Source: Periplaneta americana (Eukaryota; Arthropoda; Insecta; Blattodea; Blattidae). From it: 64,000 nt of DNA. This document shows, piece after piece, positions 7,160 through 64,000 of the stretch. Position 1 is the first letter of the stretch; every line of letters starts with the position of its first letter. Both the position numbers and the translations under genes were made by a program. The DNA lies in the NCBI RefSeq assembly GCF_040183065.1, contig NC_091132.1, positions 87,930,606-87,994,605 on the forward strand. Reading direction: 5' to 3'. A model generated the notes under the pieces. It saw only the letters and a program-made list of their open reading frames with translations. It was not told where the DNA came from and made no database searches.

Positions 7160-7539
7160 GTCATAACTAGGCTTCGAGACTTTGGACCCGATACAATAAG
7201 TTTACTGTGCATGTACTATAGGTTGTTGACTCGCTGCAGATAGGTAGAGATGTGTTGAGGTAACAACGTTGCTATTTAGAGTAGAGTACGGTAGTATGGG
7301 GAAACTCACACATATGTACAGTTTCCCTGAAAAAGGATGAGACGATTGAATATTCCTAAGTCTCAGATGTGAGACACTGCGCATGATCGGAGACCAGAGC
7401 ACTGATACACAAGATGACGAATATGATAATATTACGTAGGTAAATGAAAGATAAATATATACATAAATCGTGTAGTTAAATCGACAATGGACCTTCATGA
7501 CTAGATCGACACTCCACACAGAAAGGAAAGCTTTCATGT

Positions 7540-7612
7540 CCTTTCAATAGCTCAGACGGTAAGACTTCTGCGTGTTGTGTAGAAGAGTGCGAGTTCGATT
7601 CTTAGTCTATAC
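7540..7612 (+). other. tRNA-like (SINE-head-like) sequence near outer end of copy A
   Basis: Contains an A-box-like ATAGCTCAGACGGTAAGA and a B-box-like GCGAGTTCGATTC about 30 bases apart, as in tRNA genes and tRNA-derived SINEs. It reads towards the interior, about 220 bases from the TIR. No complete clover-leaf was forced. The same sequence is in copy B (63592-63665, minus strand). Confidence 0.6.
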
Positions 7613-7889
7613 AACGATTTTTTTTGTCTAAATAACGTTGAAATAGCTAAGTAACGTTGAAATAGAGTTTTACAAAGTCCTGAGATTAAGTGTTAATGAT
7701 CGCAAACAATACAAAATTACAAGTTATAATATTATAAACGTTAATCTAATGAATGCATTTATACACACACATATACAATGTAAATGCATATATATTAAAA
7801 ACTAACAATTAAAATGAAATTATAAAAAAAATATATAAAATAATAGACAAACTTTTACAAAGGTTTAGAGTCCTTAGGCTATGTAATTT

Positions 7890-8800
7890 GTTGAGTAATT
7901 ATTACAATATTTTATTAATAGCTTTCCCATATGTGTAACAAATGCACTCGCACAAAACAATTTTTGTTAAAAGTATGGCTTTAGATTATTTCATTCTCAC
8001 ACCTTCAGTTAATTTTAACTATTTTATCTACGTGTTTGCAATAGTGTTTAATTTAGTATGCATTCAATTTTATTCATGTTATGATTGAATGGAAAAGCAC
8101 TGTTGCAGTTATTGACTAATTACATATATTAATACTAATTATTAAATGCATCTGTTAAGTAACCAATTGCAGTATCTTTTGCAAAATCTTTAATGTTTAA
8201 GTTGTCAATAATATTTCTGTACTATATACTATAATACGTTAAAAGAATTTGCAATAGATTTGGGATCCTCTACTTTATAATCATTGGTTTTAGAGAAAAA
8301 ATATTTTCTTTCTTAGGATATCTACAAGTTTAAATTTAATAATATTCCGAATAGATTTAATTGCATTATCTGAATTTTGTACTTTTCTATTCAAATATAT
8401 TCTATTTCCCTCTTTCATAATTTTTGATAAATTACACTGTACTCCTTGCAGTATTTAAGAACATGAGGATCATTACATTGCAACTCATTACATATAGATT
8501 CTTCTTTTTAATACATGAGATTTTGAAGTCCCTGCGTTATCTACATGTTTTTACTTTTGAATTTTTTCACAACATTGAGTGGAGAAAATCCACTGAAGTG
8601 ATTATGAAATTAAGTGAAAAATGCAATACATTAGCTCTTAATATCAGTAGTACCAGTATCATATACGTTTTTCCAAGATTCATTTTGTAGACATAAATGT
8701 AAATAATCATTAGATACAACATTTACGATCCTTTCTTAGTTTTTAAATTAATATTTTGAAATTGTTCAGTAACATTGGAAACACTTAGGATTTGTTAATC
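7890..8800 (-). pseudogene. captured LINE open-reading-frame fragment in copy A
   Basis: The minus strand yields, in several frames, VIYQKLWKRGNRIYLNRK, NSDNAIKSIRNIIKFKL and NIIDNLNIKDFAKDTAIGYL followed by TDAFNN. These resemble the linker between endonuclease and reverse-transcriptase domains of Jockey/CR1-type LINEs. Frames change repeatedly, so it is a relic. Its presence at the equivalent place in copy B shows it was inside the DNA transposon before the two copies separated. The plus-strand open frame at 8424-8690 is a shadow of it. Confidence 0.6.
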
Positions 8801-9038
8801 ATGTTCAGACAAGCCATTGATTATAGGTTCTGTCGAATAGGAATTCAGTCTAATTCTGTGTACAAAACATTTATCAATGGCTGTGCTACTTCAGCTTAGA
8901 TTTAATTTGATTAGTTTCGCAACAGTTGGACTTCCTGTTATATCCTGTTATTTAGATATTTAATTTAGGGTTGATTTATTAACTCTTACTATGCAAGATG
9001 TATCTTATTTCAATAATTCTATATCACGTTAAATAGTC

Positions 9039-10091
9039 ATGTCTACACTAAAGTATTATCGTCATCCCTCATTTCTCATCGCAATGGCGAACCGACTAGA
9101 CATGAGACAGCGAGTTATAGCTCTAGTTGAGGCTGGATATGGGGCTAGATCTGCTGGCCGTTTGGTCGGTGTTCCTGGAAGTACAGCCGCGAGGTGGGTT
9201 ATCGTTGCCAAAATTTAGGAGAGGTCGAAAATCGCCCTATTCCTGGGCGTCCGCGGATTTCTTCATTGGAAGAGGATGCTCTCTTATTCGAGACAGTTCG
9301 ACAGGACCCCTTTCTGACTGCTAACGAAATAAGAGCAGTATCTAACTTTCCCGGCTCTTCACAGACTGTGATCAGCAGGTTGAGGAACCGCGGTATTAGG
9401 AGCCGGAGGGCTGCGCAAATGGAAATATTGGGGGAAGCACAAGCTGTCGACCGTCTTGCCTTCGCTACCAATCGAGTGGATTTCGATTGGAGAAATGTAA
9501 TTTACTCCGACGAAACAACCATCTCGAGTGATTACGAAGGTCCTGTCCGTGTCTATCGTGAGGATGGTCTCCGACATGACCAGCGCTATGTGCACCGACG
9601 TGAAAGATCGGGGCGCTTTAGCATATCGTGTTGGGGGTGGATGTCTTACGATGGACCTGGCGTTATAGAAGCATCTATGGCCGGTTTAATGCGGGAACTT
9701 ACGAGCACATTCTGAAAAATATATTCCTTCCCTCCGCCCGAGAACGTTTTCCCGAAAGAACATTGCTCTTCCAGCAGGATAGCCATCCCGTGCACTATGC
9801 TGCAAGCATTCAAAGATGGTTTCAAAGGAGACCCGAGATCGAAATCATTAATTGGCCTCCGAAGTCACCTGATTTGAATGTCATCGAAAATTTATGGGTG
9901 GAATTGAAAAAGAGAAGGATAGCCCCTATGCCCACCGACGCCCTCGAAATCGAGACGAATTTTGGGATCCAGTTGTTGACACCTGGGAAGAACTCGCCGG
10001 GGATCAGAACTTATTTCACAACCTCGTGACATCCATGCCGGATCGACTTAGATCTGTAATAGAAGCTGATGGCATGTGGACAAGATTTTAA
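9039..10091 (+). pseudogene. Tc1-type DD35E transposase, copy A (three frameshifts)
   Basis: Encodes a transposase of about 335-350 residues with the Tc1/mariner layout: N-terminal paired-like helix-turn-helix, a GRPR motif (PIPGRPRISS), then the catalytic core. The acidic residues are visible as VIYSDET, LLFQQDSHP and PDLNVIENLW. The spacing between the second D and the E is 35 residues, not the usual 34 of Tc1. Three single-base losses break it: near 9200, near 9669 (before the ASMAG misreading) and near 9928. Start is either 9039 or the Met at 9084 (MANRLDMRQ). All three catalytic residues are still encoded in this copy. Confidence 0.85.
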
Positions 10092-10304
10092 GTTAACAGG
10101 TCTCTTTTTGTTTCTTATGATTTTTGTTTGAGGAAGAATACTTTTAACTTCCAAATAAGATTTATTATTTTTTTTTGACGAGGTTCAGCCAACTTGTAAA
10201 ACCCAGAAATTGGGCATAAATTATTCCATATTTTTCGACAAATTAGACAGTCGAGGAACTCTGAACAAATTAATTACACCACAATAAAAAAAATGTTTTA
10301 CCCT

Positions 10305-10385
10305 GGATCGAACACGAGACGTTTCGGTTATACAGCGGAACCAACACGCTACTGTATGAGCTACCGAGACAAGACAGTGACAGCA
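10305..10385 (-). other. tRNA-like sequence near inner end of copy A
   Basis: Minus strand shows GTAGCTCATACAGTAG (A-box-like) and CTCGTGTTCGATCC (B-box-like). It points inwards, opposite to the tRNA-like sequence at 7540. Apart from the boxes the two are not alike, so they are not simply an extended TIR. Copy B has the counterpart at 60440-60525. Confidence 0.55.
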
Positions 10386-10857
10386 GCAGTCCAGAATGTA
10401 GATCCCTTAGCAGGCATTTGCCATTCGATACAGTGAAGCAATGATATTTTGTTACTCGAGCTATGTTATGAAATCCTGGCCTTAAATGGCAGTCTTCTTC
10501 GTGATCCTTATTCTGGTCCTTGTCCTTGTTGTGGTCCTTGTAACAATTCTTGTACTATTTCGCATGTTATGTATCGTTACGTCGATATCGAGTGAACCGC
10601 GCTGTAGAACTTTAACTTCCGACGACCAAGAATCGTCTCATTTTTTTAAGGGTAACTGTACATTCTGAAAGTAAATATACATTACACAATGACAATGACA
10701 AAAGAATGTGAAAAACATTTATTCTCCTGTCTTTTATAAATATTTGTGTTTAATTATACACAGTATTAATGGTGGAAATAAACATGTAGCAATTTTAATT
10801 TTTTTCGTTTATCCTATTGGTCGTCTTTAGGAAGTGCAGTTACAGTACCGAATTGCA

Positions 10858-11166
10858 TTATACTGCAAGGTACATTCTCAGTGTCTCAAACGTAAATCTT
10901 TTTCGGTTATCAGCCAAACACAGTTTGTATTGTGAAAAGCTGCACTCTACATCGCACGACGTGATAAGAGCAAAACGAAAAAACCTAACATCATTGCAGT
11001 CTCTAAGAGACAGTCCTTTATTCTCGGGCGACTGTATGTCCACTAATTTGTTGTTTATGTTACACAATGCTCCATATCCGTTATTTTTACATAAAATTGA
11101 TTTCCGCTTCTGTTTTACACATTCAGAAACAGGTGTACTTGATGTCTCATTAATTCTCTGTGTCAT
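10858..11166 (-). pseudogene. hAT transposase C-terminal (dimerisation) fragment
   Basis: The C-terminal part ALITSCDVECSFSQYKLC followed by LADNRKRFTFETLRMYL matches the hAT dimerisation domain and lines up with [16 protein letters not shown] and [13 protein letters not shown] of the intact transposase at 40249-41733. The upstream 60 residues are low-similarity linker. It lies inside the TIR-bounded hAT at 7168-11436, so it is that element's remaining coding part. Confidence 0.75.
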
Positions 11167-11444
11167 TTTCTCAATTAATTTGAGGGCTTCCGGCTCTCTT
11201 GCTCTGAATTTTCTAACCGTGTAATAGTTTCAGACACAGTTTGAAAATGGGTTTGTATGAGAACTAAGTTATTCGTCAGAACCTTCAAATCCAGAGCGTT
11301 TTTCTTTGCGCATTTGTTGGCATTCATTCTACAGTACCCCCCCCCCACCCACTGTACGCTTTACCACTATACTCAGTACGCCGTTATGCGGATTTCCCAC
11401 TGAACTGCTCTTTTGGGTCCGAAGATTCGAAGCCTAGTCAGAAC

Positions 11445-12300
11445 TTAATTGTTTCTAGCCAAGCAAAATAAACCAGAAGAACATAAACCATGAGCAATTA
11501 TTAAAACATATGAACCATAAAATCGTCAATAATCCAAAGTTATTAATCCACCAATAACAAAGTACTCTATTGAGGCTTCTGTTGTCTATACATTTTTATT
11601 AGTTGATATTAGAGGAATAAATGATAATAAATTAATTTCTAATCGTATTCGTGCCCCTTTCCGTTGTTATAGTTTGTTGTGTCAGATCTTGTTTGTATTC
11701 ATGTTTCCAGTCTTTCAAACGATTATGCATGAAGCAAAGTACTGTAGTTGACTGTCAAGATTCTACTACCAAGATTAAAAGTTTGTTCAGCATCTTAATG
11801 TTTTTACCAGTATAAAAGTTTGTTCAGCATCTTAATGTTTTTACCAGTAATTATATGTAAAGTTATCGAAGATCCGGTTAATAATTTAACATCCGAAACT
11901 GCACTCGGGCATGGGTTCTATTTTCTTTCGGGCTGATTCACTAAACAACAAATTATTACTTTTTGTCTTGCTTCGAAATAAAAATAGGTGAATATTACTA
12001 ATATGTAAGTTCTAAATCTGAATTTAAAATTCAAATTGCCCCATCACGTATCATTTTCCGAGGAAAGTGAATTGAATTTTTTTATGAAAAAAAAACTTAT
12101 GTTTTTATTATTTTTCACTGCTACTGATAAAATTACAACGAACTAGGGATTCAAAATGCCTCATAATACTTTAAAAATGTGTATTGGATACAAAAATGAT
12201 GTTACATAGTTTAAAATACAAAAAACACAACAACAATAAGAATATTTCATATGTATAAAGAGAAAAATCTCGGAATTTGAACTTACCATTTAAAAGGATA
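11445..12300. other. no feature recognised
   Basis: AT-rich; a short direct repeat (AAAAGTTTGTTCAGCATCTT) at about 11777 and 11814 is the only structure noted. Confidence 0.4.
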
Positions 12301-12309
12301 AGGAACCAA

Positions 12310-12600
12310 CAATTTTTTACATGCATACTAGATGATGATCTTCCTTTATATCGCTTTTTAATTTCAGATTTTTAATGATGAAATCTTTCCCCATGCTCGT
12401 CGCTTAAGGTTAAGAAGAAAGAAATCCAAATGAGAAAGTAAAACGTGTATTTTGAGAGACATGTTACACCCCATTTTCTCATATGCACTTAATATGGTTT
12501 CCAGAAGTTTGATGTAGTTGTCTGCTATAGAATTTCCAAGGAAATTTGAGCAAACATCTTTGAAAGCGCGCCATGCCATTTTTTCCGTAATAGAAAGTTT
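12310..12600 (-). pseudogene. fragment of a widespread arthropod repeat-encoded protein
   Basis: The minus strand gives MAWRAFKDVCSNFLGN, LLETILSAYEKMGCNMSLKI and HVLLSHLDFF, then after a frameshift SDEHGERFHH and IKKRYKGR. This order is familiar from a protein fragment found in many copies in arthropod genomes and presumed TE-derived. I cannot name the element. No catalytic domain is visible and the frame is broken. Confidence 0.5.
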
Positions 12601-13060
12601 TCCTCAAACAAAGAATCAGTCATAAATTTGCAGATTTGTGGATCGATGAAAATGCCCTCTTTTAATTTGCCCTCACTCAAACTGGTAAACTTTACTTTTA
12701 AATACTGAAAACCACACCCTTATTTGTTCATTACGTAAATCTCATTTTGAAGTGTTATGAAAGTTACTGAATAGAAGGACTAATATCTGTTTATTGATTA
12801 GAAGTACAAAAAATCATGTCAACAACTATAAGAAATCGGAAATAGGTCATAAACTCATAAAATGTATTAACTTTTGTTTTGGTTGCAACCCCTAACCCAC
12901 GTCAGCTGATTCCTGGAAAAGCGCTTCTCGAAAAGTGAAATCATAGTATATCTTAAAAACCTTACGTGATACGAAGAAAAGAGATGCGTTTTCGGATTCA
13001 GTGCACACCAAACCAGAGAGGTCACATTGTTTTAAGTCGGAGGAAAATTCTTGTTGTTCA
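12601..13060. other. no feature recognised
   Basis: AT-rich sequence without recognisable coding or repeat structure; it may continue the decayed element to its left. Confidence 0.3.
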
Positions 13061-13063
13061 GTC

Positions 13064-13185
13064 TTACCTGGATGGGTTGGGAGTTTTTTCTAAACTGTAA
13101 GGCGAATGCCAGGTAATTCATGGCGAAGCCTCGGTATCATATGGCCAAATACCATCACATTATCACCAATTTCATTGGCTTGAGG
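13064..13185 (+). repeat. SINE family S1, body fragment
   Basis: Contains GTTGGGAGTTTTTTCTAAAC and GTAAGGCGAATGCCAGGTAA, then ATGGCGAAGCCTCGG. This is the same body as the full S1 copy at 16491-16731, diverged and missing the tRNA head. Confidence 0.65.
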
Positions 13186-13701
13186 TGCAGAGCCTGTGTG
13201 GGATCAAGAGGATAACACTTTGAACAAAATCTACAGTAATCTGTTTTCGTTAGGTTATTTTGAAATGATATTCAAGTATTATTTTTTTTTGCCTTTTGTA
13301 GTCTACATAAAATTCTACAGCATTAATTTAATTTTTTGTTAATTGATTATGATTTATTAATATAATTATAATTTTTTACAAGTAAAGTTAAAAGTGAGGT
13401 GAGAAAACATAAATAGTTTTCACATACAAATAATTAACACTTTGTATATTGTAAAGAAATGGTTTTTGATAAGTGATTTTCTACCTCTAATTGTTTAGTT
13501 GGGCGTTCTCTACAACTCTGTTGTCGGTTGAATTTAGATTTACTCTGTATTTTAATTAATTATATATTACTATGCATATAATTATAAATATGTGATTTCA
13601 AATCTTAAATTTTTGTAAAACAGTTCAATAAATCAATATAAGGTAAAGGAGGGTAAGTGTGCACACCTAGTATATTATTGTCTGTGGAATCTATTGTATT
13701 A

Positions 13702-13915
13702 GGGGAGCGTTGGATAGTATCGGACATCGGGTAATATCGGACAGTGAGTTTCTTTCATCTACCAGCAGATGATAGTACCTGAATGACATGGTTACGTTTC
13801 TGTGATGTCGCATACAGAAACGTAACCATGTTATTCAGGTACTACCATCTGGTGGTAGATGAAAGAAACGCACTGTCTGATATTACCCGATGTCCGATAC
13901 TACCCAACTCTCCCC
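13702..13915. mobile_element. palindromic MITE with TA target site
   Basis: Almost the whole 214 bp is one inverted repeat: GGGGAGCGTTGGATAGTATC at the left is mirrored by GGGGAGAGTTGGGTAGTATC at the right, and the arms meet at TTTCTGTGATGTCGCATACA near 13805. It is flanked by TA (13700-13701 and 13916-13917), as for Tc1/mariner-type MITEs. It would form a long stem-loop. Confidence 0.85.
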
Positions 13916-13917
13916 TA

Positions 13918-14775
13918 TAGATGAAATATTGAAAAAATAGTTTAATGAATGATAGTAATTATACGGTTTATAAATTCAGCAGATGGACTTTAGGAAACGA
14001 TAGTAAACAAACGAAATTTGATTTTTTTTAAAGGAGGCAAATGCACATTCTTAACCACATAGGCAGGTAAGAGTAAGCATAAAGAGTTTGCAGTGATTAA
14101 GTTACGAAACAAACATTTGAATTCATGCCAAAACAATTTGTTTTATATGAGAAGACTTCTGAGGCAGACATAGAAATTTTCAGGCTTTTAATACACTTAT
14201 AACCGAAACTTTTTACACTATTCTAGAGCACAATGCCCACAACAGAAATATGAGATTTAGTAATAAATTTAACTACAATTGTAGAAACGAGAAATAATAG
14301 ACAACGATTACAAAAAGTGGCTCAAGAATAACAGTCGCATACAAATGCTCCAAATCCTTCGCAACTTGAATTTAACTCGCGCACTCGCTTATTCTGTGCA
14401 CACTGTTAGCCGACAGGGAGTCGGTTTAAGAAAGTATTACTAAGGAGCAGCACAATACGGTCATAGGACATCAGTTTATGCCACTTCATTGCTACTAATA
14501 GGACTTCATTTTAATAACAACATGTTCCTTCTGACTGACATAACTCTGTAGAAAGCTCAAGTTTTATTTTGAAAAATTACATGTGATTTCAAACAAAATG
14601 TTTACACACCTTTCTAAATAGAGATTCTTCTGCGGCTCGACCAACGTATGCCTCAACCTTGTCAATAATCCATACTCAATGGAGCAATGCAAGCCAATTT
14701 TGCAGTAGGCATACCAACTATGAAGAATTCACGAGAGCACTCTTACCCGACCTCGCACACTTATCATCCTTTACC
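13918..14775. other. no feature recognised
   Basis: AT-rich sequence with no convincing open frame or repeat. Confidence 0.35.

Positions 14776-14823
<48 letters not shown>
14776..14823. repeat. (TTA)n microsatellite
   Basis: About 16 units of TTA; the poly-Leu open frame across it is an artefact. Confidence 0.9.
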
Positions 14824-14825
<2 letters not shown>

Positions 14826-15178
14826 TCTATGTTATGTTATTGAGGTGTCATTTATTTACTCTTAAATATCATTAATCAAAAGCTTTAGTATACAGGGTAT
14901 AACTAAATTAAATAGGGCTACCCAAACTTCTAGGGATGATAGAAAGACCAAAACAAACGTTTTTTTGTTAAATGACCATGGGTCTGAAATAAATTATTGA
15001 ATGACAAAACCAGAAACTCTATTGTACTGTAAGGAATAAGGTCTACAGTTGTAACGTTACATATGACACTCATGCTTCAAAACCATCAATATTTACATTA
15101 ATCAGTAAACACGCCATGACGTGAGAGTGCAATGTTTGTGCTGTGATCACGCGGTACGTTATTGTTCATTGAGAGTAG

Positions 15179-15537
15179 AGAGATGGAACAGTTCACTTGG
15201 GCTGAATTAACAGATGCGCACTTAATTTATGGCGATTTGAACAGCAGATTCGGTAGCAGTGGATTGGCCACGGTAGACCAGTTGGATGGCCTGCTCGTTC
15301 TCCTGACCTCACCCCACTTTACTTTGTGTGTGGGTGCACTTGAAGAGCCTGGTGTACGAGACTCCAATTGAATCTGAGGACGAGCTCATCGCTCCGATGC
15401 TTGCAGCTGGTGACTATCTACATCACATGCCTAGAATCTTTGAAAGTGTACGGCAGGCAATGACACGTCATTGCAAAGTTTGTATTGAAGAAGGAGGCCG
15501 TAAATTTGAACAGTTTTTGTTAAGGATTACAAATTGA
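15179..15537 (+). pseudogene. internally deleted transposase of the 14893-16216 element
   Basis: The N-terminal helix-turn-helix start (MEQFTWAELTDAHLIYG, from 15183) runs directly into VDQLDGLLVLL/LTSPHF, a broken form of the WP-x-RSPDLTP motif. The last 69 codons (15328-15537) then carry the C-terminal WGHLKSLVYETP-type region and end FEQFLLRITN. The catalytic middle is missing and at least one frameshift is present, so the product cannot function. Confidence 0.65.
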
Positions 15538-15603
15538 AATGGTTTTGAAGCATGAGTATCATAGGTAACGTTACAACTGTAGTATGTTTATTCTTTACAG
15601 TTA

Positions 15604-16090
15604 AAAAATCTGAAAGTTAGAATTTATAAAGCAGTTATATTACCGGTTCCTCTGCATGGTTGCGAAACTTGGACTCTCACTTTGAAAGAGGAACAGAGAT
15701 TAAGGGTATTTGAGAATAAGGTTCTTAGGAAAATATTTTGGGCTAAGAGGGATGAAGTTACAGAAGTTACACAACTCAGAACTGCAAGCATTGTATTCTT
15801 CACCTGATATAATTAGGAACATTAAATCCAGACGTTTGAAATTGGCAGAGCATGTAGCACGTATGAACGAATCCAGAAAGTCATACAGAGTGTTAGTTGG
15901 GAGACCGGAGCGAAAAGACCTTTGGGGAGGCAGAGACATAGATGGGAGGATAATATTAAAATGGATTTGAAAGAGATGGGATATGATGTTAGAGTGGATT
16001 AATCTTGCACAGGATAGGGACCGGTGCCGGGCTTATGTGAGGGCGACAATGAACCTGCGTGTTCCTTAAAAGCCATTTGTAAGTAAGTAA
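15604..16090 (+). mobile_element. 5'-truncated LINE 3' end, family L-A copy 2
   Basis: Same family as the copy at 979-1449. Reads NLKVRIYKAVILPVPLHGCE, TWTLTLKEEQRLRVFENKVL and then GAKRDEVT-like sequence. An 11-base deletion near 15768 removes GEWRK and shifts the frame. The distal part runs LYSSPDIIRNIKSRRLKLAE to MNLRVP, with TAA at 16067-16069. It ends with a TAAG tail and is inserted in the right TIR of the 14893-16216 element, so it is younger than that element. Confidence 0.8.
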
Positions 16091-16490
16091 TCCTATAGTA
16101 TAGTTTCTGGCTTTGTCATTAAATAATTAGTTTCAGACCTGGTCATTTAACAAAAAACATTGGTTTTGGTCTCTTCTATCATCCCTAGAAGTTTGGGTAT
16201 TGAATTTAGTTACCTGTATCTATGAAGTGAAGGAGTATTAGCTTATTGAATTTCAAGACTGACCTCGCGTGGGTTACTGTTTTGACACTGAAAAGAGATT
16301 TAGTACCGACGACTGACGAACAGCTCAACGTGGGTGGAGAATCGCAACGAAGTTAGTAGTCGCTCAGACGTACAGTACATCACCGATGACATACAGCATA
16401 ATGGTAAGTGCAGGCTTACAATAAAGAACGTTCAAAACTATCTCTCCATGAAACCAATTTTTGTGTGTATTTTTGTTCGAACAAAATTAA

Positions 16491-16731
16491 GCCACCGGTG
16501 TGGCTCAGTCGGTTAAGGCGTTTGCCTGCGGTCTGAAGTTGCGGTCGGGCGTGGGTTCGATCCCCGCTTGAGCTGATTATCTGGTTGGGTTTTTTCTGAG
16601 GTTTTCCCCAACCGTAATGTGAATGCAAGGTAATCTATGGCGAATCCTCGGCCTCATCTCGCTATCATCAATCTCATCGACGCTAAATAACCTAGTAGTT
16701 GATACAGCGTCGTTAAATAATCAATTAAAAA
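16491..16731 (+). repeat. SINE family S1, full-length copy with TSD
   Basis: tRNA-derived SINE. Head GCCACCGGTGTGGCTCAGTC carries the A box and GTGGGTTCGATCCCC the B box. The body includes TCTGGTTGGGTTTTTTCTGA and GTTTTCCCCAACCGTAATGT, and the 3' end GATACAGCGTCGTTAAATAA is followed by an A-rich tail. A 10-bp TSD flanks it: ACAAAATTAA at 16481-16490 and ACAACATTAA at 16732-16741 (9 of 10). The other S1 fragments in the window share this order. It resembles tRNA-headed SINEs of Blattodea; the family name is not asserted. Confidence 0.85.
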
Positions 16732-16979
16732 ACAACATTAATATTTATTTTATTTCAAAGAGAAAAAGAGAATGAAGTACTTCATGAATGACATGTTTGT
16801 ATGTGGCAAGTTACACTTTCATATCACAAAACGACGATTACAGTAGATTTCAAGAAATCCTCAAAATGAGAAATAATTATTACATTAACCATTCCGAATC
16901 GAGTCTATAATCGTATAAATCTTAATTGAAAATTGCATTAGGAACAAACTCCATAACTGTAGGCTAAATTTCATGTATC

Positions 16980-17417: not shown

Positions 17418-17462
17418 TTCACGTTTCTTAAATTAATTATACACACACAAACATATACACAC

Positions 17463-17505: not shown

Positions 17506-17567
17506 AGAACACACGCAATAAATATTCTAATCCAAGAAAACAGGTGACCTTGTTAGTTTTTTTAAGT

Positions 17568-31425: not shown

Positions 31426-31588
31426 AATATTTTAGGAGAAAAATTCGCTCCGGCGCCGGGGATCGAACCCGGGTCCTTGGTTCTACGTACCAAGCGCTCT
31501 AACCACTGAGCTACGCCGAATTCAATCCACAGCACCGGATCGAACTTTCCTCCTTCGATGTTTCCTTTTGTGGACTGACTCCAAGTTA

Positions 31589-31649
<61 letters not shown>

Positions 31650-31833
31650 GTCAACATAAGTTATATGTGCCTAACTTGGAGTCAGGCCACAAAGGGAAGC
31701 ATCGAAGGAGGAAAGTTCGATCCGGTGCTGTGGATTGAATTCGGCGTAGCTCAGTGGTTAGAGCGCTTGGTACGTACAACCAATGACCCGGGTTCGATCC
31801 CCGGCGCCGGAGCGAATTTTTCTCCTAAAATAT
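31426..31833. mobile_element. inverted pair of tRNA-derived SINEs around an (AT)n core
   Basis: Two ~168-bp arms are near-perfect reverse complements: left 31426-31592, right 31666-31833. An (AT)n run (31592-31644) lies between them. Each arm has its tRNA-like head outermost and its tail against the AT run. Both heads keep an excellent tRNA shape: 7-bp acceptor stem, GCTCAGTGGTTAGAGC D-arm and CGGGTTCGATCCCCG T-arm. The left copy's anticodon stem (CTTGG/CCAAG) encloses a 9-base loop, so neither is a normal tRNA gene. Confidence 0.85.
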
Positions 31834-32076
31834 TAAGTGTCAGTATTACGATAAATTCTGTAGTTCAAATTAATATGTCTATAATATTCCAGTGGTATTC
31901 AATCCTTTTGCTAGCGTACCCCAAAGTACATTTCCTTTACTTTCGTACTCCCGAATTACATTGCAATTATATAAGAAATGAAAAATAATATTTTCGTTAT
32001 ATGCAAAATGAATTATTATTATTATATTATTATTATTATTATATTATACTGATGCAATAATAATATAACAATAGTA

Positions 32077-40011: not shown

Positions 40012-42207
<2,196 letters not shown>

Positions 42208-44977: not shown

Positions 44978-45460
44978 TCGGAATATGTATGATAAGAACT
45001 TTCTTGTGTTAAATTTTAACGTACCTTGTTAACATGTTTCGACCTATTTTCGGTCATCTTCGGAACTGGTCGTTGTTGGTCTTGGCGCCTCTTGTTTCCT
45101 GTGTGGGTGCGTTCGTAGTGTAGAGTGAAAGAGTGTATGTGTTTTGAAATTGAGTTGTGTGTTGAGAATATCGTTGGGGTGTGTTTTCGTGTGTCTGTAT
45201 ATTTCATATTGTTCTAGTGTGTTGCGTTTCTGGTTGGATAGAACAATATGAAATATACAGACAACGATATTCTCAACACACAACTCAATTTCAAAACACA
45301 TACACTCTTTCACTCTACATTACGAACGCACCCACACAGGAAACAAGAAGCGCCAAGACCAACAACGACCAGTTCCGAAGATGACCGAAAATAGGTCGAA
45401 ACATGTTAACAAGGTACGTTAAAATTTAACACAAGAAAGTTCTTATCATACATATTCCGA
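44978..45460. mobile_element. 483-bp near-perfect palindrome
   Basis: TCGGAATATGTATGATAAGA at 44978 is mirrored by TCTTATCATACATATTCCGA ending at 45460. The arms pair almost perfectly for ~210-230 bp, apart from an extra ~17 bases in the left arm near 45175. The loop is about 24 bases (AGTGTGTTGCGTTTCTGGTT). Both arms carry a motif of the form CCGAAGATGACC...GGTCGAAACATG, read outwards. It could have arisen by inverted duplication of a retroelement end. Confidence 0.8.
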
Positions 45461-54190: not shown

Positions 54191-54200
54191 ACCGTGTTTT

Positions 54201-54290: not shown

Positions 54291-54329
54291 CCGATCGATG
54301 GTATAGAGCTGGAAGATATAGAATTCTTA

Positions 54330-54860
54330 CTGAGAAGTCCTTGACCTACGAATAGTGAAGACTAAAGGTCGATCTGCAGAAAACTGTATATTTGACTGTG
54401 AGAGGAGAGAGTTAAGATCTGACTAGATCAGGATGTTTTAAGATATGTAGAGAAGTTTAAATATCTTAGAGCCATAATGGAAAAAAATTGTGCATGTGAA
54501 TCTGAAATTTAGAATAGAGTAATGCAGGTAAGAGTTGCTATTGAAAGGATATTTTGGATTACAGATCTGTCCAAAGAAACTAAGAACAATATCATTAACA
54601 CAATAACAGAAAGCATTCTAACATATGATTCTATGAGTTGAACCATTACAGAGAGAATAAAACATCGAATCAACGCTGTAAAAATAGATGAATTTTTACG
54701 GACCTGAGAATATCAAGGTTGGAGAGGATTCGAAATATAGAGATGAGAAAATGAAACGGTTTATAAACGTGTTGTGGTGTCGAAGAGCTTGAGATGGCTT
54801 GGATATATTCAGAGATGACTAAGAAAGGCATTGGTAGTTTCGCGAACGGTGGAAAAGAGG
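54330..54860 (+). pseudogene. RTE-type LINE reverse-transcriptase C-terminal relic
   Basis: Readable pieces in order: VEKFKYLRAIMEKNCACESE, NRVMQVRVAIERIFWITDLS, KETKNNIINTITESILTYDS, TITERIKHRINAVKIDEFLR and LRWLGYIQR. This is the FKYLGS.....L.YG.E.W...KR.EA.EM..LR order of RTE-like elements. Numerous stops. It is a different, older family from L-A. Confidence 0.65.
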
Positions 54861-55170
54861 AAAATTACGACATACATGCAAAGGTCTCATGATACGAAAG
54901 ATGCAGTATCATGAATTGGAAGAGAAACAGTGACAGGATAGTCAGAATCGTCTGCCCTATGCTGATGGTTACATTCATATTAAATTTTGGAAAATTTCCT
55001 GGTAACTTCAAGTAATCAGACCAATTGGGAATAGAACCAAAGCCCAAACACAGTTTCAGAATACGAGTCATTAGTCAAGTGGTGCAGTTAAGTGTTTCAG
55101 CAATGAGGTGAAGTGAAGTTTTTAATATTTTAAATTACTTGTTTCTGTCTATATATACGAAGAGTCCACT
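54861..55170. other. no feature recognised
   Basis: Short AT-rich interval; the minus-strand frame 54865-55071 has no domain. Confidence 0.4.
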
Positions 55171-55534
55171 GCAAGAATGATGGATGTCATTTAGAATACA
55201 TTTTGCAGGAGAAACAATTGAAAGTTTGAAATGCTTAGCGCTCAAAGCTTAACTGTGATTTTCCGACCGTTACTGGAAAATGACTATCAGTGTTAATGCC
55301 ATATAACTTTCTATGTACATTCTATATGTCTTAAGCTATGCATTGACAGTCTTGGTTCATTTTCGATAAGAAAGTGACATCCACACTGTGATTTTCCGAT
55401 CGTTACTGGACAATGACTATCAGTGTTAATGCCATATAACTCTCTATGTACATTCTATATGTCTTAAGCTATGCATTGACAGTCTTGGTTCATTTTCGAC
55501 AAGAAAGTGACATCCATCATTCTATATATATTGC
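55171..55534. mobile_element. MITE-like element with internal 133-bp tandem duplication
   Basis: AGAATGATGGATGTCA near the left end is mirrored near the right end. Inside, ACTGTGATTTTCCGACCGTT at 55252 and ACTGTGATTTTCCGATCGTT at 55385 begin two ~133-bp units that differ at only a few positions, so the duplication is recent or homogenised. Non-coding; no firm TSD. Confidence 0.7.
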
Positions 55535-55688
55535 AATATCTCTTTAAATAAAACCAGGAAGCGTTTTCGAAAAAAAATGGAAAATGTTCCCATGCTGAAT
55601 CTTTCGTACACTACTTTTAACACTTGAATATAAATAATTTATTAAGTTAAATGGCGATCTTACTTGTGTTAATTATGTAAGCATGTGC

Positions 55689-55732
55689 GGCTTACAGCTG
55701 TTTCGGTGCTACTTGACACCATCCTCAGAGCC
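55689..55732 (-). ncRNA. hammerhead-ribozyme-like motif
   Basis: On the minus strand, in order: GGCT (stem I), CTGAGGA (matches the invariant CUGANGA core), a short GGTG...CACC hairpin (stem II, preceded by one unpaired U), GAAA (second core), CAGCTGTA (a very short, self-complementary stem III ending in a GUA cleavage-type triplet), then AGCC pairing with the first GGCT. Such minimal hammerheads with tiny stem III are known from Penelope-like retroelements. Whether this one cleaves is untested. Confidence 0.5.
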
Positions 55733-55749
55733 TTCACTTAACTACGTAG

Positions 55750-56253
55750 TTGAAATACTAAATGGGCTTTCAAATAAATTGAAAGTTAGAATTTATAAAA
55801 CAGTTATACTATCGGTTGTTCTGTATGGTTGTAAAACTTGGACTCTCACCTTGAGAAAGGAACAGAGATTAAGGGTGTTTGAGAATAAGGTACTTAGATA
55901 AATATTTGGGGCTAAGAGGGATAAAGTTACAGGAGAATGGAGAAAATTACACAACGCAGAACTGCATGCATTGTATTCTTCATCTGACATAATTAGGAAC
56001 ATTAAATCCAGACATTTGATAGGGCAGGGCATGTAGCACGTATGGATGAATCCAGAAATCCAGAAATGCATAGAGAGTCTTAGTTGGGAGACCTGAGGGG
56101 AAAATATATTTAGGGAGGCCGAGATTAGATGGAAGGATAATATAAAAATGGATTTGAGGGAGATGGGATATGATGGTAGGGGCTGGATTAATCTTGCTCA
56201 GGATTGGAACCGATGGCGGGTTTACTTGAGAGGCAATGAACCTCCGGGTTCTA
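55750..56253 (+). mobile_element. 5'-truncated LINE 3' end, family L-A copy 3
   Basis: Starts VEILNGLSNKLKVRIYKTVI and continues LYGCKTWTLTLRKEQRLRVF, slightly further upstream than the other two copies. A nonsense TAA at 55899-55901 (AAA in the other copies) stops it after FENKVLR. A deletion near 56020 removes part of LRWAGHVARM and a 9-base duplication (AATCCAGA) follows. The 3' end is worn and lacks the TAAG tail. Confidence 0.8.
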
Positions 56254-56255
56254 AG

Positions 56256-56898
56256 TTGAAATAATGAACATTACTTCATAAAAAATACCGTGAAGGTTTT
56301 AAATTTCACTTTTAAAATACAAAATCACAACGGTTTTAATTAACTGTCGTAATACACAAGAAACTACACCACCTTGGACATGTTCTGAAGGTTTTCTCTT
56401 CATGATCAATTGATCAGTAACTACCTCATTGATAGAATATTTTTATTCTGTTACATAACAATCGCAATTGTAGAATCGAATGTGTTAATGTGTAGTAGTG
56501 AGATAAAGGAGTTTCTTTAAGAATCGTGACCAAATAGTCTATGCGTATAATAATGTTGTAAAAAAGCGTTCAGCGTGACAGAAATGTCACGCTTAGTCAC
56601 TCGTGTGTGCTTTAGTTCGCCCAGTTCTGAGTTTTCTGGTTGTCAGCTGACTTGACATTGACCAGTCTTGTAGGACAACGGTTCCTAAAAGCATATGGCC
56701 CTATGCTAAAAGCAAAGCGTGAATGAAAATTATCTGGGTTACTAGAGGTGGGAATAGCAGGTCTTAATTGATATTCGCTTTGCTAATTGTCAACTTAATT
56801 GAAGAATAGGTGAAAGGTAAGTGTCCCATCCATCTCCCCTGCAGGTCATAAAATATTTGTCCAAATACAGTAATTGGCTTCCTTATAACTAATAATTA
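56256..56898. other. no feature recognised
   Basis: No coding sequence; a short GTGACAGAAATGTCACGC hairpin near 56574-56591 was noted. Confidence 0.4.
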
Positions 56899-57885
56899 GG
56901 GCGGATGTTGATGAAAAGTAATCCTATTTTTTACATTAGGACGATGCCTATTAATATAGAAATCCTATGTTAATATCAACGTAAGAAGTTAATTTCTTAT
57001 ATTGCATTTTTTTACGTTTTTGAACTAATTGGACATTTTTATATTTTTTCGGCATTTTTTGATCATTTTTAATACTTTGAAGAACTTTTACATCATTTGG
57101 AATGCATTTTACTTTCTTCTTTACCTCTAGATCTGTTAAATCTTTTTCTAAGCAAATAGGTCAGTAGTAATTACCTACTGGATAAGTGAATAATAGTAAA
57201 GTTTGAGTTTTATAGTTTGGAACAAATTCTAAAGTCCATCCCTCATTCTACTGAAGGCTTCACTTCACACAACGGAAGTAATATAAAATGCTTGACATCA
57301 GCTTAGTTTCAGCGAGGGCTTTGAACGTTACTGTTCTTTTGTCGGTACGAGGGTGTCTTCAGAATTTATGTTTGGTAGGGGGGAAACTTCCACCGTGTCC
57401 TGCACAGGACGTTGTGTCTCCAATATGATTAAGAAGGAATGTACATTTTTAACAAAAAGATTGCAAGAATGCACGCTGCGCCCACAATTTGTTTTGTCAT
57501 TCACACTCCCTCATTTGGAAGGTCTGGTAACAAAAGTGAAGAGTGGAAGGAGAAGGAGACGGAGAAAGAAGACACTGACATGGACCACCCCTGAATGAAA
57601 CACGTTGTAAACCCTTATTAAAATCTATAATTTTCCCTTAAAATCATCATTTTTTTGGTTGCCCTCTTCCTTTATCTTAGTCAAATTCCAGGAAGTTGCC
57701 TGTCTCTCCGAGTTTTGCAGGGCAGTCATTGAAACAAGGTGACTAGTTTTTAAGAAGTTGTGGTACGAATACTTTGAATAATATTTAAATGTCATTTTCT
57801 TTTAATTTTATGTCATTTTCCATTAGTTTAAGGGCATTTTAATAATCATTTTAACTAGATTTTTAGGTCATCAACATCCGTCCCC
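56899..57885. mobile_element. TIR element with CATTTT-rich subterminal regions
   Basis: GGGCGGATGTTGATGA at the left and GGGGACGGATGTTGATGA on the complement of the right. Both subterminal regions repeat CATTTTT/TCATTTT many times. The open frame 57353-57598 (81 codons, ending in an Arg/Lys-rich tail) has no family I recognise. No TSD is evident. Layout suits a non-autonomous DNA transposon, possibly hAT. Confidence 0.6.
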
Positions 57886-57900
57886 TACTTATAATATTAT

Positions 57901-58789
57901 TGTGTACTAGCCTTACCCGTGCGCTCCGCTGCACCTGTTAGAAATAAATATAAAGTAATTACATAATTAAAATAGGACGTTTGATCCAGGGAACATTCGT
58001 GTTTGATAGAAGGATAAATCGTTTAATATGTTACTTAATTTAAATTGTATTTAAATAATTAAAATGAGATCATTTTGGTCCAGAGAGCACTCAGAAGTTA
58101 CTGTAATAACATTATACAGTAGCATTATGTCCATCTAGAGAAACTACACTTTCCAATGGTGAAATAATAATGAATTCTACCAATCGGTTAAATAGCTTTC
58201 GATATTACTTCAGATAAACACAGAAACATTCTCTGTAGGCTATGTTTCATAGCTTTCGATTGTTGTTGTCCAATGCCCCTTATAGACGTAGTCATTTGTT
58301 TTCTTTTCATTACACCGCCTTAGATGGCATTGTATTTTAATTTTAAAACTCATTTATCTCATTAAATATCAGCTCTATCAAAATTTTGCAAAGAATACAA
58401 CTTATCGGAAATCATTTTAAGGAAACTTTTGTTATGTAACATATTTCACAAAAATCAATAATAAGCGAGATATTTCGATTTATTTAATTCAGGCTCCCTT
58501 ATAACCCCCCTTTTAAATAACGTATTTTGAATGCCATATGGCCTAAAATCTAAGTTACAGCGAACTTAATTTATATTCCACTTTTCATATAAATCGGTTC
58601 AGCCATTATCGCGTGAAAAGGTAACAAACATCCAGACATACAGACAGACAGACACACATGCAAACAAAATTTCAAAAAAGCGATTTTCGGTTTCAGGGTG
58701 GTTAATTATATATGTTAGAACCAATTATTTTTGGAAAATCGAAAATTACCAGAAAAATTTCGGCTACAGATTTATTATTAGTATAGATA
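57901..58789 (+). repeat. dispersed arthropod repeat, RTE/SINE-like
   Basis: Opens TGTACTAGCCTTACCCGTGC, GCTCCGCTGCACC and closes with ATCGGTTCAGCCATTATCGC, GTGAAAAGGTAACAAACATC, a CAGACAGACAGA run, and TTATTATTAGTATAGATA. These landmarks recur in many arthropod repeats related to RTE-type elements. No coding region remains; the class is uncertain. Confidence 0.5.
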
Positions 58790-59005
58790 TTACACCCTGC
58801 CTAATTCTTAGGACAAATAGGCTATTTCATATAAAATTTTATATTTGAACCTAATTTTTACCTACTGGTTACTACATAGCCCACACAGATAATTAGATTA
58901 TTATACGGCGATAATGAGTAATGTTATGGTACAGAATAATATAGTTTCCACAGAAACATTCCGTGATTATAAAGTAAGAATTTTGTAACTACTGCATACT
59001 TATTA

Positions 59006-59695
59006 CGAAACTCATACCGGTGCCATTAGAAAGAACGGCTCAAAGAATTTCAGAGGATGTGTAATTGTAAGTTGTTGGCGGAAAACAATATATGGTACCA
59101 TAAGAAAAAAAAGAGGCTGTTTCCGCTCTCTAGCCTGTCATTGTGGCACTGTTGGATAAAGCAAATTGTGTTAAATGGTTACATTTCAACTCATTGTGAA
59201 TTCTGCAGCATTTAAAGAGTTATGGCGAACCTACAGGAACGTAGTTGGTGTATATTTTACCATCTCAGAATCGTCTTGTCACTAGGTGCTGCATGTTGTA
59301 ACTCCCGTCTGAAAGCACGCTGAACTCTTACTACACTCCGTATGCTATGGTATTCCAATACACAGGAACGTATAATAACTCTTCTCTGGTTCTCAGCCAG
59401 GTGAGTTGGAGATTTGCTTCCAAACGCCGGGAAAGCCTCAAGTCATACACAGGAACATAGTTTGTAGCTCGCCATAATTCTTTGTTGCAGAATTCACACC
59501 GAGTTGAAATGTAAACATTTACACCATTTAACAAAATTTGCTTCTATTCAACAATACCACAATTACAAGCGAAAGAGCTGGAACAGTGTATTCTTTTCCT
59601 CATGGTGACATCTATTGTTTTCCGTCAACAATTACAATTACAAATCCCCTGAAATTCTTTGAGCCGGTCTTCATAATGGCGCCGGTATGAATTTC
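59006..59695. mobile_element. long-inverted-repeat element
   Basis: Arms of ~230-240 bp: CTCATACCGGTGCCATTAGA and GGCTCAAAGAATTTCAGAGG on the left against TTCATACCGGCGCCATTATG and GGCTCAAAGAATTTCAGGGG on the complement of the right. Similarity continues through AATTCTGCA to ATGGCGA. A spacer of ~190 bp separates them. The minus-strand frame 59331-59534 spans one arm and the spacer and has no recognised domain. Confidence 0.7.
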
Positions 59696-59831
59696 TTGAT
59701 ACTCATAGTTACAAAATTATATCAGTGTATAATCACGGAATGTTTCTGTGCACAAGCTGTATAATTGCTGAAGATATGTTAGGTATTTTCTGAAAATTTC
59801 GTCTACAGCTGTTTTCTGCACCATAAATCTA

Positions 59832-59912
59832 GCAGAATTTGACCGGATTCGAACTCCGGGCTTTTTGATGAGAAGTTGTGAGACAACTGCCTGTGGTATG
59901 GCTGAGTTTATC
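59832..59912 (-). repeat. tRNA-like SINE head remnant
   Basis: Minus strand includes ACTCAGCCATACCACAGGCA (A-box-like, weak), GCCCGGAGTTCGAATCCGGT (good B box and T-arm). No SINE body identified on the 3' side, so only a head fragment is claimed. Confidence 0.5.
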
Positions 59913-60439
59913 AATGTGAAACTACTTGTATCTAAAGTATCATATTTTATTAGACTTCTGATTGGGACCAATATAATTATACTTATCATTTTTCCGTTTT
60001 TTTCATACAGGTCAAAAGCTGGAAGTACCAGATGTCATCTAGTGTTGGCGAGTGATTATAGAAGTACAAAACATTAATCTGAAATGTGCACCAATTGCAC
60101 TATATTCCTGACAAGTTTCAGAAAATACTGGACCATATGTTCAAAAAGTTGTTGAAAAAACGTACAGTTACCCTTAAAAAGAATGAGACGATTCTTGGTC
60201 GTCGGAAGTTAAAGTTCCACAGCGCGGTTCACTCGATATCGACGTAACGATAAATACCATGAAAAATAGAACAAGAATTGTTACAAGGACCACAAGGACA
60301 AGGACCAGAATAAGGATCACGAAGAAGACAGCCATTTAAGGCCACGATTTCACAACTTAGCTTGGGTAACAAAATATCATTGCTTCTCTGTACCGAATGA
60401 CAAATGCCTGTTATCGGATCTACATTCTGGACTGCTGCT

Positions 60440-60525
60440 GTCACTGTCTTGTCTCGGTAGATCATAGTGTAGCGTGTCGGTTCTTCCGTATAACCGACAC
60501 GTCTCGTGTTTGATCCCAGGTGAAA
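60440..60525 (+). other. tRNA-like sequence near inner end of copy B
   Basis: Plus strand CGGTAGATCATAGTGTAGCG and CTCGTGTTTGATCCC correspond to the A- and B-box regions of the copy A sequence at 10305-10385. One B-box C has become T (TTTGATCC). Confidence 0.5.
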
Positions 60526-60714
60526 CTATTTTTTATTGAGGTGTAATTAATTTGTTCAGAGTTCGAGTTTGAAAAATATGGAATTATTTATGTCCAATTT
60601 TTGGGTCTTACAAGTGGGCTGAACCTCGTCAAAAAAAAAAAAAATCTTACTTGGAACTTAAAAGTATTTTTCCTCAAACAAAAATCATAAAAAAACTAAA
60701 AGAGACCTGTTAAC

Positions 60715-61769
60715 TTAAAATCTTGTCCACATACCATCAGCTTCTATTACAGCTCTAAGTCGATCAGGCATGAATGTCACGAGATTGTCGAATAAGTTCT
60801 GATCCCCGGCGAGATCTTCCCAGGTGTCAACAACTTGATCCCACAATTCGTCTCGATTTCGAGGGCGTCGGTGGGCATAGGTGGCTATTCTTTTCTTTTT
60901 CAATTCCGCCATAAATTTTCGATGACATTCAAATCAGGTGACTTCGGAGGCCAATTAATGATTTCGATCTCAGGTCTCCTTTGAAACCATCTTTGAATGC
61001 TTGGGGCATAGTGCACGGGATGATTACCCTGCTGGAATAGCAATGTTCCTTCGGAAAAACGTTCTCGGACTGAAGGAAGGAATATATTTTCCAGAATGTG
61101 TTCGTAAGTTCCCGCATTAAACCGGCCATCGATGCGTTCTATAACGCCAGGTCTATCATAAGACATCCACCCCCAACACGATATGCTAAAACGCCCCGAT
61201 CTTTCACGTCGGTGCACATAGCGCTGATCATGTCGGAGACCATCTTCACAATAGACACGGACAGGACCTTCGTAATCACTCGAGATGGTTATTTCGTCGG
61301 AGAAAATTACATTTCTCCAATCGAAATCCATTCGATTGGTAGCGAAGGCAAGACGGTTGACAGCTTGTGCTTCCCCCAATATTTCCATTTGCGCAGCCCT
61401 CCGGCTCCTAATACCGCGGTTCCTCAACCTCCTGATCACAGTCTGTGAAGAGCCGGGAAAGTTAGATGCTGCTCTTATTTCGTTAGCAGTCAGAAAGGGG
61501 TCCAGTCGAACTGTCTCGAATAAGAGAGCATCCTCTTCCAATGAAGAAATCCGCGGACGCCCAGGAATAGGGCGATTTTCGACCTCCCCTGAATTTTGGT
61601 AACGATGAACCCACCTCTCGGCTGTACTTCCAGGAACACCGACCAAACGGCCAGCAGATCTAGCCCCATATCCAGCCTCAACTAGAGCTATAACTCGCTG
61701 TCTCATGTCTAGTCGGTTCGCCATTGCGATGAGAAATGAGGGATGACGATAATACTTTAGTGTAGACAT
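60715..61769 (-). pseudogene. Tc1-type DD35E transposase, copy B (one frameshift, one catalytic change)
   Basis: 289 uninterrupted codons from 61769, then the last ~65 codons in another frame (60715-60912, from MAELKKKRIATYAHRRPRN to MWTRF). A single base lost in the ENLW codons at about 60911 explains the break. The true start may be Met16 (MANRLDMRQRV). Features: helix-turn-helix at ~20-60, GRPR at 70-73, second helix region ~80-125, first catalytic D158 (VIFSDEIT), E284 (PDLNVIENLW). The second catalytic Asp is Gly248 here (QQGNHPVHYA; QQDSHPVHYA in copy A). So this copy could not work even with the frame intact. Second acid to E spacing is 35 residues. Confidence 0.88.
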
Positions 61770-62439
61770 GACTATTTAACGTGATATAGAATTATTGAAA
61801 TAAGGGGTATCTTGCACAGTAAGAGTTAATAAATCAAACCTAAATTAAATATTTAAATAACATGATATAAGAGGAAGTCCAATTGTTGCGAACCTAATCC
61901 AATTAAATCTAATTACATTAAGTAAACAAATCCCAAGTTATGACACCACATTGCTACAACTAAATTGTAGGTTATTAACATACGCATTGAATAGGTCCGT
62001 GCTTATGCGTTGGACGACAAAACCAAACATCGAAATTTCGAATCTTGCCGAGGAATATAACTTCTTGCTTTTTATTATGTAAATCAGACTTCTAACTACA
62101 TTCATATTTCTTACATTATTTATTAATATTTATAGCCAACATTGAATTTGTAAAGAAAAGACTTTAGAAATCTCATATGGAATTTGTGATCTGTAGTGAC
62201 ATAAACATAGATTATCTCTCGGAGCTTTTGCGTAAAAGTAAATTAAATTCACTCCTTGAAACTGGAAACATTAGTCGTAGACTCATTGTCCCACCTGCAT
62301 ACAAGCTGAAGTAGCACAGCCATTGATAAAAGTTTTGTACACAGAATTAGACTGAATTCCTATTCGACAGAACCTATAATCAATGGCTTGTCTGAACATG
62401 ATAAACAAGTCCGAAGTGTTTCCAATGTCACTGAACAAT

Positions 62440-63350
62440 TTCAAAATATTAATTTAAAAACTAAAAAAGGGTCGTAAATGCTGTAGCCTATCTAGTGATT
62501 ATTTACATTTATGTCTACGAAATGAATCTTCGGAAAACGTATATGATACTGGTACTACTGACATTAAGAGTAAATGTAATGTATTTTTGACTTAATTTCA
62601 GAATCACTTCAGTGGATGTTCTCCACTCAATGTTGTAAAAAAAATTCAAAAGTAAAAACATGTAGATAACGCAGGGACTTAAAAATCTCATGTATTAAAA
62701 AGAAGAATCTATATGTAATGAGTTGCAATGTAATGAACCTCATGTTCTTAAATACTACAAGAAGTACAGTGTAATTTATCAAAAATTATGAAAGAGAGAA
62801 ATAGAATACATTTGAATAGAAAAGCACAAAATTCAGATAATGCAATTAAAGCTATTCGTAATATTATTAAAGTTAAACTTGTCGATATCCTAAGAAAGAA
62901 AATATTTTTTTCATTAAAAGCAGTGATTATAAAGTAGAGGCTCCCAAATCTATTGTAAATTCTTTCAACGTCTTATAGTATATAGTAAAGAAATATTATT
63001 GACAAATTAAACATTCAAGATTTTTCAAAAGATACTGCAATTGGTAACTTAACAGATGCATTTAATAATTAGTATTAATATATGTAATTAGTCAATAACT
63101 GCAAAAGTGCTTTTTCATTCAATCATAACATGAATAAAATTGAATGCACATTAAATTGAACACTATTGCAAACACGTAGATAAAATAGTTCAAATCAACT
63201 GAAGGGGTGAGAATGAAATAATCCAAAGCCACACTTCTAACAAAAATTGTTTTTGTGCGAGTGCATTTCTTACACATATTGGAAAGCTACTAATAAAATA
63301 TTGTAATAATTACTCAACAAATGACATAACCTAAGGACTCTAAACCTTTA
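62440..63350 (+). pseudogene. captured LINE open-reading-frame fragment in copy B
   Basis: Counterpart of the 7890-8800 fragment, on the opposite strand. Pieces such as YQKL, NSDNAIK, IDKLNIQDFSKDTAIGNLTD are discernible with multiple stops and frameshifts. It sits between the outer tRNA-like sequence and the transposase, transcribed towards the outer end. Confidence 0.55.
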
Positions 63351-63591
63351 TAAAAGTGTGTCTGTGTGGCTTAGGGATATTTTTTAATTTCATTTCAATT
63401 TTTAGTTTTTAATATATATGCATTTACATTGTATGTGTGTATGTATAAATGCATTCATTAGATTAACTTTTATAATATTATAACTTGTAATTTTGTATTG
63501 TCTGTGATCATTAACACTTAATCTGAGGACTTTTTAGAACTCTATTTCAACGTTATTTAGCTATTTCAAAGTTATTTAGACAAAAAAAATC

Positions 63592-63665
63592 GTGGGGTAG
63601 GCTAGGAACCGAACTCGCACTCTTCTACACAACACGCAGAAGTCTTAGCGTCTGAGCTATTGAAA
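63592..63665 (-). other. tRNA-like sequence near outer end of copy B
   Basis: Minus strand ATAGCTCAGACGCTAAGACT and GTGCGAGTTCGGTTCC correspond to the copy A sequence at 7540-7612, with one change in the B box (TTCGGTTCC). Confidence 0.55.
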
Positions 63666-64000
63666 CGCCACAAAAGCTTTTCTTTCTGTGCGGAGAGTCG
63701 ATCTATTCATGAAGATCCATTGTCGATTTAACGACACGATTTACGTATATATTTATATTTTATTTACGTAATATTATCATATCTTTTGCAGTTTTTGAAG
63801 TGAATTTCGGAACGATGCTAGTAACAAACCAAATAGCCTGAATCTAAGTAACTCAATATTCGTTATCTTGTGTATCAGTGCTCTGGTCTCTGATCATGCG
63901 CAGTGTCTTACATCTGAGACTTAGGAATATTCAATCGTCTCATCCTTTTCTAGGGAAACTGTACAAAAACATAAACACATATGCAAATATATAGGCCTAC

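Follow-up and report, generated by a model that had tools for sequence, protein, structure and literature searches.

Elements of the Tc1/mariner (IS630-Tc1-mariner) superfamily are marked by duplication of a TA target, a transposase with helix-turn-helix (HTH) and DDE domains, and terminal inverted repeats (TIRs) beginning with CAGT. DD34E/Tc1 elements, which are of the Sleeping Beauty type, are usually ~1.6 kb long, compared with 3.8 kb for the family described here. Traveler (DD35E/TR) has a longer catalytic spacing. According to excerpts of its published description (PMC7093834), intact Traveler copies measure 1.0 to 2.2 kb, are found in vertebrate hosts only, have CAGTC (51/78) or CAGCC (23/78) as termini and carry an open reading frame (ORF) of ~340 amino acids with a GRPR motif. 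The same excerpts give CAGTT as the terminus of Sleeping Beauty, which is also the terminus found here. In the genome of the cockroach Periplaneta americana, Tc1-Mariner ranks with the principal DNA elements and is more abundant at around 5% Kimura divergence, as stated in excerpts of the assembly report (PMC12774602). Here, we analyzed a window of 64,000 nucleotides (nt) from P. americana contig NC_091132.1. It contains two elements, copies A and B, which are broken and very probably represent two branches of a single Tc1-like family. All three marks of the superfamily were found in this family.

Copy A occupies positions 7319 to 10658 of the window (plus strand), and copy B lies at 60165 to 63961 on the minus strand. 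Both start with CAGTTTCCCT, end with ...GGGTAACTG and have TA on either side. The TIRs of copy A are at 7319 to 7347 (left, plus strand) and 10630 to 10658 (right, minus strand), with matching arms of 21 and 17 nt. In copy B, the plus strand of the element is the minus strand of the window; its right TIR is at 60165 to 60193 (plus strand) and its left TIR at 63933 to 63961 (minus strand), with arms of 32 nt that match at 88%. A default-scored search aligned the two copies at ~92% identity across two large blocks, and an alignment spanning their length gave 88% in the left 1.6 kb and 93% in the right 1.75 kb. Copy B is ~391 bp longer in the middle of the element, and copy A lacks ~74 bp near the left end, a private deletion. 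The transposase gene is broken in both. The first-pass annotation of the window had described paired elements with matching CAGT TIRs, TA targets and a common interior, and all of this is seen in the two copies.

Further copies were collected from the genome with two queries. The left 200 bases of copy A yielded 742 first-look candidates, 40 of which were scored, and 20 loci were fetched of the 39 scored places besides copy A. The ORF of copy B, used as a protein query, yielded 24,002 first-look candidates, 135 scored matches and 30 returned loci. Both sets were drawn from the top of long candidate lists and not at random, so they say nothing about the fraction of genomic copies that is intact. 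All 20 loci fetched with the copy A query were complete elements flanked by TA on either side, measuring 3,374 to 3,421 bp except for L015, which measures 3,797 bp and carries an insertion of its own. Copy A and these loci differed by 0.6 to 1.9% from the majority sequence of 22 copies (3,410 bp); copy B was 5.8% away, and 5.8% was also noted for its distance from the intact-type consensus. Ten of the 30 loci from the ORF search were extended to the left end, and 10/10 proved to be full elements: eight of 3,782 to 3,787 bp, L030 (3,792 bp, from the branch of copy B) and L031 (3,413 bp). The eight copies of 3,782 to 3,787 bp are intact and lie 0.3 to 0.7% from their own consensus of 3,785 bp. 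Their layout comprises 29-bp TIRs, a left part of ~2.2 kb, an ORF of 336 codons and, 3' of it, a further ~0.56 kb. The consensus TIR has 29 columns with 3 mismatches and starts with CAGTT, the sequence present at both termini in 32/32 copies. Thus, the oversize claimed earlier (3.3 to 3.8 kb) is borne out by the consensus lengths of the A sublineage and of the intact sublineage, and the collected copies did not give a consensus of ordinary size. Excerpts of PMC12774602 describe no single family among the Tc1-Mariner repeats, and in comparison with these repeats, the copies of the intact and A sublineages are younger (0.3 to 1.9%).

A tree was built from the right 1.66 kb with 51 rows (52 minus L029, which is copy B of the window itself); its bootstrap had not settled. 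Copy B and L030 formed one group (support 100/100), identifying copy B as a member of an older sublineage. Twenty A-type rows (copy A and 19 others) formed a second group (100/100), to which L015 was attached with weaker support (93/73), and 28 intact-type rows formed the third (100/98). The ~391-bp segment present in copy B (61913 to 62302, minus strand) and absent from the A sublineage was detected in 27/30 ORF-search loci, copy B being one of them. Since the segment is this widespread, the A sublineage must have lost it. It was missing in L031 and in the short form L053, and L033 had no match at all in the left half. The right half of L031 grouped with the intact type, while its left end is A-type; L031 is a probable recombinant of the frame-shifted and the intact sublineages. 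In L053, the left TIR is joined to the promoter region at a short microhomology, and the 336-amino-acid ORF is retained. Because of this junction and its position in the young intact group, L053 probably arose from the long form by deletion.

The transposase gene of copy A (9084 to 10091, plus strand) is frame-shifted, with matches to DDE_3 and HTH_Tnp_Tc3_2 on the fragments. That of copy B (60715 to 61724, minus strand) is open until just past the catalytic Glu, where one G is missing; in addition, FQQG replaces FQQD, which puts a Gly at the second Asp. The two genes differ by four single-base indels, one of which is the defect of copy B itself. The G in question (position 2649) is kept in 21/22 aligned copies, showing that this frameshift is private to copy B. 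The three single-base deletions that copy A has relative to B are common to most of the A sublineage: those at 2423 and 2677 were found in 20/22 aligned copies (not in B or L015) and that at 1953 in 18/22 (not in B, L009, L010 or L015).

In the intact consensus, the gene is a single ORF of 336 amino acids. Pfam assigned to its product DDE_3 (68.2 bits, 9.1e-19), HTH_Tnp_Tc3_2 (39.5 bits, 6.7e-10) and HTH_23 (33.0 bits), all above the cut-off. A search of the PDB returned SB100X with E=2.1e-27 over 221 residues, the sole Tc1-like chain with a significant E-value. The catalytic residues were read as D143, D233 and E269, and when aligned to SB100X the protein is one residue longer between D233 and E269. 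A distance of 35 residues from the second Asp to the Glu, already given in the first-pass annotation, was obtained by a hand count on the ORF of copy A and by a motif search in 27/30 ORF-search loci, one of which is copy B (L029) with Gly for Asp; the motif search gave no reading for the remaining three (L030, L052 and L053). The full 336-amino-acid ORF was present in 21/30 ORF-search loci, including all eight intact copies, by a count anchored on MANR that overlooks changed starts such as that of L030. Among the 135 scored matches, 125 were free of stops throughout the matched region, which extends to immediately past the Glu. The ratio of nonsynonymous to synonymous changes per site (pN/pS) was 0.38 between the B branch (at sites where B and L030 are the same) and the intact consensus, with 11 synonymous and 14 nonsynonymous changes. 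Within the set of eight intact copies it was 0.36 (9 synonymous and 11 nonsynonymous changes, no stop).

The target preference is strong and reads A-Y-G-TA-C-R-T. TA was present on both sides at 32/32 distinct insertion sites. Counting TA as positions 1 and 2, the third base was G on the left and C on the right in 31/32 sites each, and the fifth base was A on the left in 28/32 and T on the right in 26/32. Some copies were read from the other end of the element, which is immaterial for a palindromic target. Beyond self matches, paralogs spanning the insertion site were available for four sites (L019, L020, L021 and L027), and two of these (L021 and L027) had empty paralogs with a single TA. For L021, seven of ten paralog alignments read TTTTATGTACATTC, with one TA, and the remaining three were diverged; for L027, there was one clean paralog (in L018) and another with GTGC. 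L013 (A-type) and L036 (intact type) occupy the identical position of one repeat. This position was probably hit twice, since the copies come from different sublineages. Copy A (window position 7319) and L012 also share a position, with flanks that are 89 to 93% alike. Here both copies are A-type, and conversion or duplication may be the source.

From these data, we consider it very likely that copies A and B are defunct members of two branches of a recently amplified Tc1-like (IS630-Tc1-mariner) cut-and-paste family of P. americana. By homology, its HTH and DDE transposase would bind the TIRs, excise the element and insert it at TA within AYGTACRT. The intact copies would provide the enzyme, which would have spread the 3.41-kb sublineage of copy A in trans, as the shared frameshifts in copies ~1% apart suggest. 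The large size would be due to passenger DNA that was present before the branches split. Several points weigh against this explanation. Some A-type copies could be segment duplicates, and L033 yielded no left-half match. At two of the four sites with spanning paralogs no clean TA was found, as the L019 paralogs read GTGC and the L020 paralogs are gapped at the target. The pN/pS values are based on 25 and 20 changes, and AlphaFold2 run without an alignment reached a mean predicted local distance difference test score of 38, so that its model was unused and the fold rests on sequence.

The left part is where the extra length of ~2.1 kb resides. The leftmost 2.16 kb of the consensus contain no ORF of 100 codons, and the longest stop-free stretch is 89 codons; likewise, no long ORF is present at 61913 to 63670, which covers the greater part of this region in copy B. 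The cargo proposed in the first-pass annotation, understood as carried genes, was thus not borne out, as the extra segment shows no gene. On the strand opposite to the transposase, pieces of the left part (e.g., INGLSDHD) bear what we take, by eye, to be a resemblance to the endonuclease and linker of a long interspersed nuclear element (LINE), a likeness that neither Pfam nor the PDB confirmed. Pfam searches with four left-part pieces (E<=10) gave no relevant match and no endonuclease or reverse-transcriptase domain, and a PDB search with one piece found nothing. Within the window and the loci retrieved up to that point, matches below 85% identity consisted of element copies and one weak match (E=0.42). 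For us, a decayed LINE as the source of the left part is no more than a lead. The B branch and the intact branch diverged by 3 to 9% per 200 bp throughout the left part, and therefore no strongly conserved island stands out. When the inner 375 bp of the left and right sides were compared for traces of ancient long TIRs, the local similarity was not significant (reached by 154/300 shuffles); the global score exceeded 200/200 simple shuffles.

Each side of the consensus element also carries a tRNA-promoter-like pair of box A and box B with a T-run, reading inward. In copy A, pattern searches placed the left pair at 7548 to 7625 (plus strand) and the right pair at 10286 to 10363 (minus strand). 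The consensus matches TAGCTCA-N20-50-GTTCGA at 303 (plus) and 3489 (minus), 303 and 297 bases from the ends. Dinucleotide shuffles contained 0.004 pairs on average, and 0/1000 reached the observed two, with a pattern that was picked after looking at the sequence. In the whole window, the pattern matched four times, twice in copy A and twice in tRNA units at 31.5 to 31.7 kb. Genes for tRNA at the element ends were considered and rejected, since the Rfam tRNA model gave no match at E<=10 in both copies and three 111-base stretches. Relaxed ARAGORN (-ps60) returned 339 matches across the window and was uninformative on this point. A weaker, third pair of box A- and box B-like motifs, seen by eye and followed by TTTTT, lies in copy B at 61985 to 62080, within its 391-bp segment; there, Rfam gives no tRNA match.

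The paired boxes could mean that the left part is functional, with inward tRNA-type promoters acting as boundaries or as a source of small RNA that protects or regulates the element. This idea is compatible with the cut-and-paste family proposed above, and it draws on the symmetrical position of the boxes, on the shuffle result and on the retention of the left pair in 26, the right pair in 27 and both pairs in 22 of 32 copies. We nevertheless regard it as unlikely, given the post hoc choice of the pattern and the negative Rfam result. Moreover, the 200-bp block that holds the right pair diverges fastest (9.5%), copy B lacks both pairs and L030 has only the right one. The cockroach genome contains 3.47% short interspersed nuclear elements (SINEs), mostly with tRNA-derived promoters, according to excerpts of PMC12774602. 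With tRNA-derived SINEs this frequent in the cockroach, the pairs are most simply explained as heads of old SINE insertions. A further proposal, that the family is an insect Tc1-like lineage separate from Traveler, with its own origin of the D-35-E spacing, a long passenger whose retention accounts for its great success at 3.8 kb and whose two flanking RNA polymerase III promoters, directed inward and symmetrically placed ~300 bp from the ends, serve as boundaries or regulators, and a strict 8-bp palindromic target, appears improbable to us as a whole. It is also doubtful that the oversize is secondary, that is, that a normal Tc1 element of ~1.6 kb received recent insertions of unrelated repeats. 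The existence of a short form with the 336-amino-acid ORF (L053) speaks in favor of this, but L053 belongs to the young intact group and its microhomology junction makes it look like a deletion of the long form, and the long left part is common to branches that are ~6% apart.

The remaining alternative concerns ancestry and holds that the element is a vertebrate-type Traveler gained by an insect through horizontal transfer. Traveler and the present family share the D-35-E spacing, the TA duplication, a similar ORF length (336 versus ~340 amino acids) and a GRPR motif, located here between the HTH matches. In the excerpted description (PMC7093834), however, Traveler is set apart by its termini (CAGTC or CAGCC instead of CAGTT), its size and its vertebrate hosts. 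In addition, a spacing of 35 can be obtained by one inserted residue, as the alignment with SB100X shows. Kinship with Traveler, as far as this source goes, is thus not supported, and we judge the transfer very unlikely. With Sleeping Beauty, in contrast, the family shares the HTH and DDE_3 domains, the TA target and alignability to SB100X. It differs from Sleeping Beauty and DD34E/Tc1 in the additional residue (35 instead of 34) and in HTH_SB, which reached 21.6 bits with the consensus protein, under the cut-off of 43. Nor is the TIR core repeated further inside, close to the ends: a search allowing up to 3 mismatches found a single inner match, at 3439 on the plus strand with 3 mismatches. 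On sequence comparison, the family fits best among Tc1-like elements, close to DD34E/Tc1, and the extra residue in the SB100X alignment leads us to favor a DD34E lineage with one inserted residue. Scans of IMG/VR viral sequences and GTDB contigs found no relative. No description of this family was met in the excerpts of the literature consulted, which is not proof that it is undescribed.

Other repeats were also observed in the window. At 31426 to 31834, two tRNA units (Tyr and Arg by ARAGORN) lie within the arms of an inverted repeat (173 nt, 97%) that surround an (AT)n run; instead of two tRNA genes, this is probably a tRNA-derived repeat dimerized head to head. The stretch from 16501 to 16700 has a tRNA-Ser-like head with a longer tail and resembles a tRNA-derived SINE. 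An open frame of 494 amino acids at 40249 to 41733 (minus strand) matches DUF659 (2e-12), with a weak, below-cut-off match to the hAT dimerization domain, and possibly encodes a hAT-related transposase. Finally, a hairpin-like repeat at 44978 to 45460 has 199-nt arms that are 99% complementary, with 85 nt between them.

The family is real, young, numerous and unusually long; it belongs to the well-known Tc1 kind and, within the reach of the searches made here, does not represent a new type of element. It warns that a DD35E spacing alone need not define a family of Tc1 elements, since a single inserted residue suffices. It also offers a case of probable recombination between frame-shifted and intact sublineages (L031). 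Within one genome, it provides the case of a full-length 3.4-kb sublineage with shared frameshifts spreading beside intact relatives, and of a Tc1-like element that would have kept its mobility at over twice the normal size.

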